DNA from: an uncultured Alistipes sp.
GTDB taxonomy: Bacteria > Bacteroidota > Bacteroidia > Bacteroidales > Rikenellaceae
Assembly (NCBI GenBank): GCA_944326035.1
Contig: CALVCS010000011.1
Span: 1-64,000, forward strand
Direction: 5' to 3'
DNA length: 64,000 bases
Part shown: positions 2,214 through 58,877 of the stretch, one piece after another
Layout of the letters: each line of letters begins with the position of its first letter
Numbering within the stretch: the first letter of the stretch is position 1
Position numbers and translations under genes: made by a program
Notes under the pieces: model-generated
Database searches by the model: none
The model's input: only the letters and a program-made list of their open reading frames with translations
What the model was told of the DNA's origin: nothing

Positions 2214-3407
2214 TCAGTCTGTAATAGGGGTAGGATTCGAAGGTTCAGCGGAAGGTGTCACTTCGAGGGGGCCAGAGGCTGGGTTTGACTCCGCAGTTTG
2301 AGGGGTTTCGGCCGGAAAAACCTGCCCCTGATGTACTTCGAATAGGGTATATTCGCAGCCGTTGCTTTGCAGGATCCCTTCCAGACGGACTTTGTTGCAG
2401 TCGGTGATGAAGATCTGGGAAAAGCGTTCGTCGGAGACCAGTTCGATGAGGCGTCGGACGCGGGCCATATCCAGTTTGTCGAAGATATCGTCCAGCAGTA
2501 AGATCGGACGGTGCTGGCCCTGAGCGGCGACCAGATCGTATTGGGCCAGTTTCAGGGCGACCAAAAACGACTTTTGCTGTCCCTGCGAGCCGTATTTGCG
2601 CAGGGGATAGCCGCCGATGGTCATGCGGATGTCGTCGCGGTGAACCCCTCCGGTCGTAAATTGGTTGATGCGGTCCCGTTGGTCATTCCGGCGGAGCAGC
2701 TCTTCGAAAGAGAGGTCGTTGAGTTCGGAACGGTACTGCAGCTCCACCGCTTCCCGGTCGTCGGCCAGGGTGGCGTAATAACGGGCTACGATCGGGGCCA
2801 GCTCTTCGATCAGCCGGGCCCGACGGGCATGGATCGCGGTGCCCAACATCGCCAGTTGCAGATTGAAAACCGAAAGCATCTCTTCGAAATGGGGACTCGA
2901 CGGATTTTTGAGCCATTTGTTGCGGTCGGCCAGAATCCGGTTGTATTTGATGAGCGTGGCCAGGTAGTCGCGGTCGAGTTGCGAGATCAGACTGTTGAGG
3001 TATTTGCGTCGTTCTTCGCCCGATTCGTTGATCAGGGCAGTGTCCGAAGGGGTCACCATCACCAGGGGAATCAGCCCGATGTGATCGGACAATTTCTCAT
3101 ACTCCTTGCCCCCGCGACAGAGCTTTTTGGGATGACCCTTGCTGCAGGAGCAGACGATGTTTTCGTTTCGTCCGTCGGGGGCGACGTACTGGCCGTTGAC
3201 CACGAAGGCCTCGGTTCCATGACGGGTACATTGTAAATCGGTGAGATTGAAGGCACTCTTGCACATCGACAGGTAGTGAATGGCATCCAACAGATTGGTC
3301 TTGCCCGTACCGTTTTCGCCCACAAAACAGTTGATGCGGGGGGAGAAGTCGATCTGAGCTTCTTCGATGTTCTTGAAATTCAGCAGAGAGAGCCGTTTGA
3401 GGTACAC
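2214..3407 (-). CDS. recF: DNA replication and repair protein RecF
   Basis: RecF is an SMC-like ATPase that works with RecO/RecR to load RecA at single-strand gaps. The Walker A motif GENGTGKT is at residues 30-37, an ABC-type signature (SQGQQKS) lies around residue 275, and the Walker B motif ILLLDDIFDKLD near residue 320. The start codon is GTG (3405-3407), followed by the typical YLKRLSLLNFKNI. At 397 residues it is about 30 longer than usual because of a Pro/Ser/Thr/Glu-rich tail after residue ~360 that looks disordered. It leads a two-gene unit with the DciA-like gene. Confidence 0.96.
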   Translation of the reverse strand: MYLKRLSLLNFKNIEEAQIDFSPRINCFVGENGTGKTNLLDAIHYLSMCKSAFNLTDLQCTRHGTEAFVVNGQYVAPDGRNENIVCSCSKGHPKKLCRGGKEYEKLSDHIGLIPLVMVTPSDTALINESGEERRKYLNSLISQLDRDYLATLIKYNRILADRNKWLKNPSSPHFEEMLSVFNLQLAMLGTAIHARRARLIEELAPIVARYYATLADDREAVELQYRSELNDLSFEELLRRNDQRDRINQFTTGGVHRDDIRMTIGGYPLRKYGSQGQQKSFLVALKLAQYDLVAAQGQHRPILLLDDIFDKLDMARVRRLIELVSDERFSQIFITDCNKVRLEGILQSNGCEYTLFEVHQGQVFPAETPQTAESNPASGPLEVTPSAEPSNPTPITD

Positions 3408-55470: not shown

Positions 55471-57567
55471 TTAGGGAATGCTTTCGGTGTAGGTTTTCCC
55501 TTGGTAGATGGCTTGGGCGCCGGCCGGAATTTTCACCGAAAGCTGTCCTTCGGTCAGGGTTGCTTCGATGTCGCCCTGCGGCGTGGGAATGATGGCATGC
55601 ATGTTTTTCACGGAGGTGATCTTCGGATCGACGGAGAAGACCTTCCACCCATCGGCCAACGGACGAATGCCCAGCAATTCGCCCGGAATCAGAGCGGCCG
55701 GACCGCTGCTCCATCCGTGGCACAGGCTTTTGCCGTAGGGACGTTTGTAGAACGTGTACATCTTGTCCGGACCTTCTTTGGGATCGTAGCCTTCCCAGAA
55801 GCTGGTTGCTCCTTTCTCGATCATTCCGCCCCAATAATCTTTCATTTGGCGCAGCATCTCTTCGCCTTGACCCAGCCGAGCCAGGGCCATGTATTCGAAT
55901 GCCATCATATAGGGCGTTCCGACCTGTTGCACCGTGGTGTCACTTAACGTGCGGATGATGGACTCGTATTGACTTTCGGGGGCCAGACCTGAGATCACGG
56001 CCAGGAAGTTGGCATGACGGTTGGGACCGGATTCTTCGGTCAGCTTACCGCGCCAGGCCCCACGTTGGGCGTCATAGCCTCTTTCGAGCAAAACGGCTTT
56101 CAGTTTGTCCGATTTATCGCGCCAGTAGGCTGCCATTTCCGGTTCTTTCATGCGGTCGGCCAGGTTGGCGACGCTTTGTTGGGCCCACCACCACAGAACT
56201 TGCAGGGCGCCCTCTTTTTCTACGTCGACCCAGTCGAGGAAGAGCCAGGCATTCCCCGGCAGCAACAACCCGTCTTTGTCACTGCGTTGTTCCAGCACCG
56301 TCATCATCTCTTTGATGCGTTTCCATTCGCGTTTCAGGTGTAACGTGTCGCCGAAATAGAGTTGGTAGTTATCTTGGGAGATCAGCCACCAGAGCGAATA
56401 GTCGACGATGTTATTGATGTTGGTTTCGGCGATGCCTTCGCGGCCCAGCACGGCGATCGAACGACGGACGATTTCCGGATCGGCAAAGGTATAGGCGTTC
56501 ACCATCAGACTCGTTGCGATATCGCCGGCCCAGGGCAAACGGTCGCGTTTGACGCCGTCCAGGTGGAATTCATGCATGCACAGACGCAAGGTGTAGGCGC
56601 TGTTCATCCAGATCTGGTCCAGCAGCGGATCGCTCGAGGTGAACTCGCCCCGATATTGGGCCGGATAGGTGTAGGCGTCGCAGATGACGTCTTTGATGCC
56701 TTTGCCCTGGAGCGTCAGGTAACGGAAACCCAGGGCGTGAGCGGTACGCCAACGATTGGGACCGACTTGTACCAGGTCGAAACTCTGTTCCCGATGTTTG
56801 AGCACGGTGTCTTGGGCTTCGGCCACGGATTCGCCGGCATAGAGTTCGGGTTTTTCGGCGGCGGTCAGCGACACGAAGCCGAACAGTTCCCGACCGAAAT
56901 CGTAGATGTTGCCGTCGATCTGCTCCGGCTGCAACGTGAGGGTCGGGGTTTCCATACGGTGAGGCAGGCTATCGCCCTGCAACGGAGCGTAGGCGCAGGG
57001 GTAGTTCCAATCGGTGCCGTCGGAGCAGGCTCGCCAACCGGCATCCCGGGTCGAGCAGAAGCCGTTTTCGATCCGCAGTGCAGGGGGTTCGTTTGGGGCC
57101 TGCAGTTTGATGAGCAGGGTTTTGTGAGGGTCGAGCGTCACCCGGTGGGGGGTCCGCTGATTTTGACCCTTATAGATCTCTTTCCAGTCCTGGGTAATGG
57201 AGATGTCCCCGAAGGCGTAGATATCGACGATGGCCGAGGGGTCGGCCGGTTGATTGCTTTCCTGTTCGGGGGTCCATTGGAACCAGGCGGTATCTTTGTA
57301 GGCGTAGTATTTGCCGGGATAGGAGACCCGGAGTTTCGCCTCTTTCATCCGTTTGAAGAGTAAGGCGTGGCGATAGGCTTCCAACTCGGTATCGGCATAC
57401 AGCCAAGGTGCCCCGTCCACTTCGGTGGTTTGCGGCACGACTTGCGTACGGGAGTAAGCCGGGTCGATGGAGGTAATGGCATCGCGTTCGGTTTGTTGGG
57501 AAGAGTTGCAGGCTGTTTGAGTCACAGTCAGGGCGCAGAGCCCGATCCAAAAAAGATGTCTTTTCAT
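55471..57567 (-). CDS. GH78-like alpha-L-rhamnosidase lipoprotein
   Basis: A 698-residue glycoside hydrolase of the bacterial alpha-L-rhamnosidase group. The N-terminus is a lipoprotein signal (MKRHLFWIGLCALTVTQTAC). A beta-domain region is followed from about residue 310 by the six-hairpin barrel, with the family motif HLDGVKRDRLPWAGD holding acidic residues and a second glutamate in SFWEGYDPKEG. The C-terminal part (VDPKITSVKNMHAIIPTPQG) is the small beta-sandwich seen in GH78. It is likely surface or periplasmic, releasing L-rhamnose from glycans. It has its own promoter. Confidence 0.85.
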   Translation of the reverse strand: MKRHLFWIGLCALTVTQTACNSSQQTERDAITSIDPAYSRTQVVPQTTEVDGAPWLYADTELEAYRHALLFKRMKEAKLRVSYPGKYYAYKDTAWFQWTPEQESNQPADPSAIVDIYAFGDISITQDWKEIYKGQNQRTPHRVTLDPHKTLLIKLQAPNEPPALRIENGFCSTRDAGWRACSDGTDWNYPCAYAPLQGDSLPHRMETPTLTLQPEQIDGNIYDFGRELFGFVSLTAAEKPELYAGESVAEAQDTVLKHREQSFDLVQVGPNRWRTAHALGFRYLTLQGKGIKDVICDAYTYPAQYRGEFTSSDPLLDQIWMNSAYTLRLCMHEFHLDGVKRDRLPWAGDIATSLMVNAYTFADPEIVRRSIAVLGREGIAETNINNIVDYSLWWLISQDNYQLYFGDTLHLKREWKRIKEMMTVLEQRSDKDGLLLPGNAWLFLDWVDVEKEGALQVLWWWAQQSVANLADRMKEPEMAAYWRDKSDKLKAVLLERGYDAQRGAWRGKLTEESGPNRHANFLAVISGLAPESQYESIIRTLSDTTVQQVGTPYMMAFEYMALARLGQGEEMLRQMKDYWGGMIEKGATSFWEGYDPKEGPDKMYTFYKRPYGKSLCHGWSSGPAALIPGELLGIRPLADGWKVFSVDPKITSVKNMHAIIPTPQGDIEATLTEGQLSVKIPAGAQAIYQGKTYTESIP

Positions 57568-57589
57568 AAAACGTATTATTGAGGCCCAA

Positions 57590-57619
57590 CAAAGATAATC
57601 ATTCCGTTTGAAATACGAA
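57590..57619 (-). promoter_or_regulatory. Promoter of the rhamnosidase gene
   Basis: Minus strand TATCTTTG (57597-57590), 23 bp before the ATG, with TTCG at 57619-57616 as a partial -33 element. Confidence 0.6.
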
Positions 57620-57634
57620 ACTGAAAGATTCTCA

Positions 57635-57661
57635 GAAAAAAAAGAGGAGGCCCTAGCCTCC
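57635..57661 (-). terminator. Minus-strand terminator upstream of rhamnosidase gene
   Basis: GGAGGC (57646-57651) pairs with GCCTCC (57656-57661); on the minus strand it is followed by CTCTTTTTTTTC. It would end any transcript begun at the riboswitch before it reached the rhamnosidase gene. Confidence 0.7.
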
Positions 57662-57952
57662 GTTCCTTGCTTATGACGATCCTGACAGTCACCAAATACA
57701 AACCTAAACTCTTTTTATCTGCCGGAACGATTCCGAAAACCCGATGCCTCACGGCGTCTGCGGGGCTTCTCCTCTTTTTTTGTCGGACCGCGGGAGGGGA
57801 ACTCCGTACGGTTCGGTAGGGGTGGGCGTAGGGAACGATGTTGATCGTTCGGAACGCTCGTCGATTTTGCTGGTTTTGAGAATTCGCAGACCCCGACAGA
57901 CATTCCTTCCGCATTTGAACGGTTGGCTGTTTGGCAGAAGCTGTCGCAGGGA

Positions 57953-57973
57953 GAAAAAGATCGGCCTTGGCCG
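57953..57973 (-). terminator. Possible riboswitch-linked hairpin terminator
   Basis: On the minus strand CGGCCAAGGCCG (57973-57962) is followed by ATCTTTTTCT. It lies about 45 nt after the aptamer 3' end, a suitable place for an expression platform. The stem is short (4-5 bp). Confidence 0.45.
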
Positions 57974-58020
57974 GACAGTTTCTTACTAACCCATATCACC
58001 GTAGGTCGTAGAATTCACAC

Positions 58021-58240
58021 GCAGATGGCAGGTCTTCTGACTTGTTCCACTTTTGAAGTCTTCCCGTCCGCAGGGCGGACAGTGACGTGTAGGGACCGGG
58101 GAGGTCGGATGGTTCAAAAGCGAGGATCTTCACCGGAGGGAAGATCGGAACTTACAGCAGCGGGAACTGTTGCCGATTTGCACGGCATTCCCTTTTACAT
58201 TCCGTTCCCGGAGCGATGCCGGGTCGGGAAACCATTGCAG
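58021..58240 (-). ncRNA. Cobalamin (vitamin B12) riboswitch aptamer, no B12 gene downstream
   Basis: Read on the minus strand, the conserved cobalamin aptamer elements appear in order: TGGTTTCCC, GTAAAAGGGAA, GTGCAAATC, CAGTTCCCGCTGCTGTAAG, the B12-box half GTCACTG with a following hairpin and GGGAAGAC, and AGTCAGAAGACCTGCC. The ends GCAATGG (58239-58233) and CCATCTGC (58028-58021) can close P1. This is the RF00174-type architecture (established knowledge). Normally a btuB or cobalamin synthesis gene follows; here the next minus-strand gene is the rhamnosidase, 450 bp away, beyond a terminator and with its own promoter. Confidence 0.9.
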
Positions 58241-58242
58241 GA

Positions 58243-58273
58243 CAAAGATGGAATTATTTTTCGAGAAATGCAA
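58243..58273 (-). promoter_or_regulatory. Promoter of the cobalamin riboswitch
   Basis: Minus strand TTG (58273-58271), 20 nt, CATCTTTG (58250-58243; one mismatch to TAnnTTTG). The expected transcription start coincides with the aptamer's 5' end. Confidence 0.65.
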
Positions 58274-58367: not shown

Positions 58368-58877
58368 TTACAGCAACGATTTGACCACTTTGAGGGCGGC
58401 TTCGTAATCGGGTTCATGGGTGATTTCCGGGACATATTCGATGTGGCGGATCATCCCTTTGGGATCGATGACGACAACCCCGCGACCCAATAGACGCAAT
58501 TCGCGGATGACGAATCCGTATTTCATCCCAAAATCCAGGTCGCGGTAGTCCGAATAGACATGTACCCGGTCGATGCCTTCTGCCGCACAGAAGCGTTGTT
58601 GGGCGAAGGGCAGGTCGACGGAGATCGACCCCACTTCCACCCGGTCGTTCAGACGGGTGGCTTCCTGGTTGAATCGTTTGTTCTGGAGGGCGCAGACGGA
58701 GGTGTCGACCGATGGAAATACGCTTAAGATCAATATTTTGTCTTTCCAGAGATCGGAGCTGACACTTTGCAGATTGCTGTCCAGAACGGAAAATCGGGGG
58801 GCTTTGTCGCCGACCTGGAGGTGGGTGCCGATCAAGGTGACGGGCTGACCTCCGAACGTGATAGGATAATTGTCCAT
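58368..58877 (-). CDS. tpx: Thiol peroxidase
   Basis: Tpx reduces hydroperoxides using thioredoxin. The 169 residues align well with the family: LSVFPSVDTSVCALQNKRFN with the peroxidatic C62, VDLPFAQQRFCAAEG with the resolving C97, and the C-terminal EITHEPDYEAALKVVKSLL. Both cysteines of the atypical 2-Cys mechanism are present. It is monocistronic, followed by a terminator and then the promoter of the riboswitch on the same strand. It is divergent from ybaK. Confidence 0.96.
   Translation of the reverse strand: MDNYPITFGGQPVTLIGTHLQVGDKAPRFSVLDSNLQSVSSDLWKDKILILSVFPSVDTSVCALQNKRFNQEATRLNDRVEVGSISVDLPFAQQRFCAAEGIDRVHVYSDYRDLDFGMKYGFVIRELRLLGRGVVVIDPKGMIRHIEYVPEITHEPDYEAALKVVKSLL

Follow-up and report, generated by a model that had tools for sequence, protein, structure and literature searches.

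The riboswitch locus

The window, that is, the whole 64 kb stretch of DNA analysed here, comes from a gut bacterium of the Rikenellaceae related to Alistipes and contains a single Rfam match, a cobalamin riboswitch aptamer (RF00174) lying on the minus strand between two genes of that same strand.

58368 to 58877, minus strand: tpx (thiol peroxidase), the upstream gene (NF001808, 192 bits)
58243 to 58273, minus strand: predicted riboswitch promoter of the Bacteroidota -33/-7 type, by consensus match (TTG, then CATCTTTG 23 nt on)
58010 to 58251, minus strand: cobalamin riboswitch aptamer (RF00174)
57590 to 57597, minus strand: -7 box of the rhamnosidase promoter, TATCTTTG, conserved in the sister genome G003
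55471 to 57567, minus strand: GH78-type rhamnosidase, the next gene (PF17389, E = 1.9e-24)

The first-pass annotation had recognized all conserved blocks of the aptamer, and the covariance-model search bears this out: the match (58251-58010) covers model positions 1-189 of 189 and scores 76.7 bits (E = 3.9e-17), far above the gathering score of 31.5 bits. The B12 box AAGUCAGAAGACCUGCC and the conserved core are intact here and in G003, and the stretch AAGTCAGAAGACC is identical in the window, in G003 and in gene-bearing congeners. A promoter-like box had likewise been noted at the 5' side of the aptamer; the predicted promoter (58273-58243) does overlap this side and recurs in G003 as TTTG...AATCTTTG, with the same spacing of 23. 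A terminator hairpin after tpx (about 58342-58313) is also conserved in G003. Together with its pattern of divergence from G003 and its compensatory base-pair changes (see below), the aptamer match identifies the element, as judged from its sequence, as a genuine cobalamin riboswitch that presumably binds cobamides.

In place of the B12-related gene that directly follows a classical cis-acting riboswitch, the next gene is the rhamnosidase, which has its own promoter, is 90% identical to that of the closest named relative (an uncultured Alistipes sp. assembly) and has its ATG 442 nt past the end of the aptamer. Counting ORFs of at least 150 aa, the orphan and its G003 orthologue have the longest aptamer-to-ORF distance among 45 family aptamers, the rest showing a median of 133 and a maximum of 421. 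The earlier description of some 450 nt that hold no convincing reading frame is thus accurate, and G003 does not preserve the small ORFs of this gap as coding frames. The gap begins with what appears to be the expression platform.

58011 to 58016, minus strand: 5' arm of the platform stem, GAATTC, pairing with 57885-57880
57989 to 58006, minus strand: regulatory (L13-type) hairpin, CCTACGGTGATATGGGT
57941 to 57978, minus strand: platform hairpin, CTGTC(CGGC..GCCG-ATCTTTTT)..GACAG, with CTGTC and GACAG kept in G003 and the loop changed
57880 to 57885, minus strand: 3' arm of the platform stem, GAATTC
57779 to 57879, minus strand: unconserved spacer, at the presumed former start of the lost operon

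The 40 nt around the regulatory hairpin (58009-57970) are identical in G003, and the hairpin motif recurs in the gene-bearing riboswitches of six congeners (G006, G001, G002, G005, G007 and G008). The long-range platform stem retains both arms (GAATTC/GAATTC, GACC/GGTC), and these still pair in G003, where one G-C pair has become G-U; at the corresponding position the gene-bearing homologues carry GATTTTAC...GTAAAATC. In these relatives the 3' arm ends directly before the start codon, and the riboswitches look translational. No terminator of clear strength directly follows the orphan aptamer. The short hairpin with a T-run that the first-pass annotation had placed 3' of the aptamer is present inside the platform hairpin (CGGC-CAAG-GCCG then ATCTTTTT, about 57973-57955), but its stem has only 4 bp and is absent from the list returned by the terminator scan, which makes it weak as a terminator.

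Origin of the orphan

The comparison set consisted of nine congeneric genomes, among them that of the window (G000). In G006 the orthologous riboswitch is directly followed by an uptake operon, which comprises genes for a DUF5074 lipoprotein, a PKD lipoprotein, a second DUF5074 protein and a TonB receptor and sits exactly between the riboswitch and the orthologues of the GH78 and GNAT genes (56% and 67%). The comparison with related genomes thus supplies the kind of gene whose absence had been remarked upon in the window. Nor does G006 show the window's spacing with a conserved reading frame in it, its first gene lying 113 nt after the riboswitch and about 6 kb of operon separating the riboswitch from the rhamnosidase. 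DUF5074 proteins, which we take to be the BtuG-type family from what is generally known of BtuG and from their constant place beside cobalamin riboswitches in the genus, occur in seven of the nine genomes and are absent only from G000 and G003. In G003 the gene order (tpx, riboswitch, GH78, GNAT) is the same as in the window, and in a tree of the aptamers (n = 45) the two orphans join the operon riboswitch of G006 with a support of 0.95.

Taken together, these findings make it very probable that the riboswitch formerly headed a DUF5074 (BtuG-type)/TonB-receptor operon for cobamide uptake and was orphaned by loss of that operon. The common ancestor of the window species and G003 would have lost the whole operon, the promoter, the aptamer, the regulatory hairpin and both arms of the platform stem staying in place. 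Coding remnants of the operon were found neither in the window, by tblastn, nor in G003. The equal length of the spacers, the identical elements on either side and the lack of DUF5074 proteins in both genomes favour a single old loss. Two independent losses, or a fast turnover of the spacer, may instead have occurred, since the spacers of the two species (102 versus 101 nt) lack detectable homology in a test with a power of about 67-97%.

The operon-bearing form also bears on the question of whether the riboswitch has since captured the rhamnosidase as a new target that it controls by read-through. The first-pass annotation had listed this beside the loss of a btuB-like gene and the control of a small RNA, and in both species GH78 is indeed the gene that follows on this strand. 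We nevertheless regard it as improbable and as the weakest of these three options because, as had also been observed at the time, a further terminator (57661-57646) and the separate rhamnosidase promoter (57597-57590) intervene, both of which prove to be conserved. Moreover, the GH78 gene of G006 also has its own TTTATCTTTG box after the operon, and we know of no link between GH78 and B12.

Conservation of the riboswitch and of a downstream non-coding block

Why would a riboswitch persist once its operon is gone? It might be a passive leftover of an operon whose loss was recent or took place separately in the two species, its conservation reflecting its former job. The presence of the operon at the same place in G006, its disappearance from the window genome and the missing homology between the two spacers are all in keeping with such a relic, whereas the lack of coding remnants in both genomes is not, and the matching spacer lengths and flanking elements point to one old loss. 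The degree of conservation speaks against it as well. Between G000 and G003 the aptamer differs by 13% (8% in its core, outside the variable insert), the region of the regulatory hairpin at 0 of 40 positions, and a second conserved block further downstream (block 2, described below) by 6%. The neutral yardsticks for the same pair are 43% at fourfold sites (41-47% in two neighbouring genes), 53% in the spacer and 50% in the tpx 3' region, and the conserved parts depart from them with Fisher p values of 1e-9 to 1e-20. A decaying relic would have diverged at the neutral rate, and the values found are 8-13% versus 43%, a comparison to be read with the date of the loss having no independent estimate.

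The best control is an internal one, provided by the two riboswitches with genes in G000 and G003, whose aptamers differ by 14% and 23% and whose first 45 nt after the aptamer differ by 24% and 31%; in the same script the orphan gives 16% and 7%, respectively. The orphan is therefore conserved to about the same degree as its gene-bearing counterparts. In addition, compensatory changes between G000 and G003 (columns 23-51, U-A to C-G; columns 139-195, A-U to G-C) lend support to apparent selection at the RNA level, and in the 132-202 helix pairing is kept through five double changes with respect to G006. The orphan is carried by just two genomes, and G003 is a metagenome assembly. On balance, we think it likely that the orphan riboswitch has been retained by selection, and a mere relic appears rather unlikely to us. 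The suggestion that the element remains after loss of a btuB-like gene is hence upheld as regards its origin, but because of the apparent purifying selection in two species the orphan does not seem to be simply a leftover.

The second conserved segment lies beyond the spacer and was covered by the first-pass annotation in its terminator alone.

57638 to 57778, minus strand: conserved non-coding block 2 (141 nt), candidate RNA domain or sRNA, 94-95% identical in G003 and ending in the terminator 57661-57646 plus T-run
57699 to 57706, minus strand: TAGGTTTG box inside block 2, a possible separate promoter, conserved in G003, having no -33 element

The terminator, a strong one with a T8 tail, is conserved and is the only one on the minus strand that the scan listed downstream of the aptamer. 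By blastn, block 2 was not found outside G000 and G003 in 61 relatives, 268 family genomes and about 390 order genomes, and a covariance model detected it nowhere else among 150 family genomes; short matches in other family genomes (E 0.003-0.008) were taken as chance. It matches no known RNA in Rfam at E<=5, and it does not look like a mobile or repeated element, being present in a single copy with no phage match and no exact viral-contig match to its core. A 6S RNA would be expected in every congener, whereas block 2 was found in two of them only, which disfavours its being a 6S-type RNA; the Bacteroidales 6S-type model RF01693 found no match in any of the nine congeneric genomes and so neither identifies nor excludes it. 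The complementary ends of block 2 (AAAAGAGGAG / CTCCTCTTTT) would allow a closed rod to form from either strand. Base pairing of the platform with block 2 was considered and proved inconsistent between the two species.

Does block 2 then belong to a protein? A 112-codon frame (57914-57576) runs open downstream of the aptamer and is partly open in G003, as a gene for a small protein might be. However, its start region and the spacer are unconserved, and where the frame passes through block 2, the 32 codons compared contain no synonymous change and all 13 fourfold sites are identical, although 43% would be expected to differ. The constraint thus acts on nucleotides rather than codons, and a small protein is highly improbable.

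A putative B12-gated RNA and other cobalamin riboswitches

Preserved after its genes were lost, the switch probably controls, or itself is, a non-coding RNA. Small-RNA control, one of the options put forward before, becomes the leading functional reading because the orphan is apparently under purifying selection, and the conserved non-coding block ending in a terminator strengthens it; the regulated product is for now a predicted one. The best explanation in our view, to which we assign a probability of about 0.5, is that of an operon-loss orphan kept by selection and now controlling a non-coding transcript of ~600 nt. Transcription would start near 58238 and end at the terminator at 57646, giving what may be one continuous RNA. 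With cobalamin bound, the closed platform would be favoured and early termination or decay would follow, the sign of regulation being presumed; with cobalamin absent, transcription would continue into block 2, whose RNA would act in trans on a putative target. For the component of this scheme that joins the riboswitch functionally to block 2 in a non-coding RNA, we see about even odds.

Most Gram-negative taxa examined in one RNA-seq survey are reported to have transcriptionally active cobalamin riboswitches (PMC12121620), and premature termination has been proposed for the uptake riboswitches of B. thetaiotaomicron (PMC12751083). Termination is therefore plausible for the orphan too, its direction and mechanism here being conjectural.

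Alternatively, riboswitch and block 2 may be two separate features, the former giving a short leader RNA, with or without a role in trans, and the latter being an independent sRNA gene. The conserved TAGGTTTG box within block 2, which could serve as its own promoter, and the unexceptional RNA stability of the block (z about -0.9) allow for this, as do its own terminator and the non-conserved spacer that sets it apart from the riboswitch. The box, however, is without the -33 element that the riboswitch promoter has, no terminator of scan strength separates riboswitch and block, and block 2 is found only in the two operon-less genomes. We accordingly hold two separate features to be unlikely, and retain a single transcript as the preferred reading.

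How does such a transcript compare with known systems? With the riboswitches of the Bacteroidota btuB/btuG operons (B. thetaiotaomicron operons 1-3, PMC12751083) the orphan shares aptamer, regulatory hairpin and platform stem, but it lacks the whole operon and is followed instead by a non-coding stretch of 442 nt that includes a conserved block and a terminator. In layout (aptamer, then a same-strand non-coding domain and terminator, no gene) it resembles EutX/Rli55 of Enterococcus and Listeria, a cobalamin-riboswitch-containing sRNA that sequesters EutV and that adenosylcobalamin shortens, removing the regulator-binding 3' part (PMC5821096, PMC6317780). The orphan differs from EutX/Rli55 in that it belongs to Bacteroidota and arose, as we propose, by loss of a transporter operon, and in that block 2 has no Rfam match; in the part of the window that was read, neither eut genes nor an EutV-binding dual hairpin were seen. 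A non-coding output, as proposed for the orphan, is also that of the antisense cobalamin riboswitch of pocR in Listeria (PMC9943018). In contrast to the latter, the orphan is without an antisense target in cis because its nearest genes, on either side, lie on the riboswitch's own strand. Tentatively, and with somewhat less than even confidence, we suggest that a Bacteroidota cobalamin riboswitch was recruited after operon loss for a trans-acting RNA, an EutX-like B12-gated regulator that would have evolved independently outside Firmicutes.

If true, this would mean that gut Bacteroidota, in which cobamide competition matters, have a further regulator made of RNA and dependent on B12; control of non-coding RNAs by riboswitches is known in very few instances. 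Moreover, since the riboswitch with its operon, the disappearance of the operon and the conserved riboswitch without genes can all be seen within one genus, the path by which a cis-regulator may turn into an RNA regulator is opened to testing.

The window genome has three cobalamin riboswitches, which precede an nrdD-like ribonucleotide reductase, a TonB receptor followed by a lipoprotein and CbiK, and, in the orphan, no such gene; cobalamin-binding-domain proteins and the riboswitch-led TonB receptor/CbiK cluster are still present. G003 shows the same arrangement. A cobalamin riboswitch before an nrdD-like class III ribonucleotide reductase was seen in several congeners (L087, at G000:C12, L094, L096, L098 and L109); this enzyme is B12-independent, and a need for it is expected when B12 is scarce. 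Three genomes (G001, G005 and G008; L076, L077 and L075) contain a pair of facing cobalamin riboswitches separated by ~7 kb, with each heading one half of a DUF5074/TonB-receptor uptake cluster. In G013 two cobalamin aptamers are arranged in tandem on one strand, about 190 nt apart (G013:C165:2209-2398 and 2590-2772, plus strand). Finally, in G004 (L101) and G006 (L108) a cobalamin riboswitch stands before a biotin-carboxylase-like gene (protein start like MIRKILVANRGEIA), which is unusual as a target and possibly connected with propionyl/methylmalonyl-CoA metabolism.
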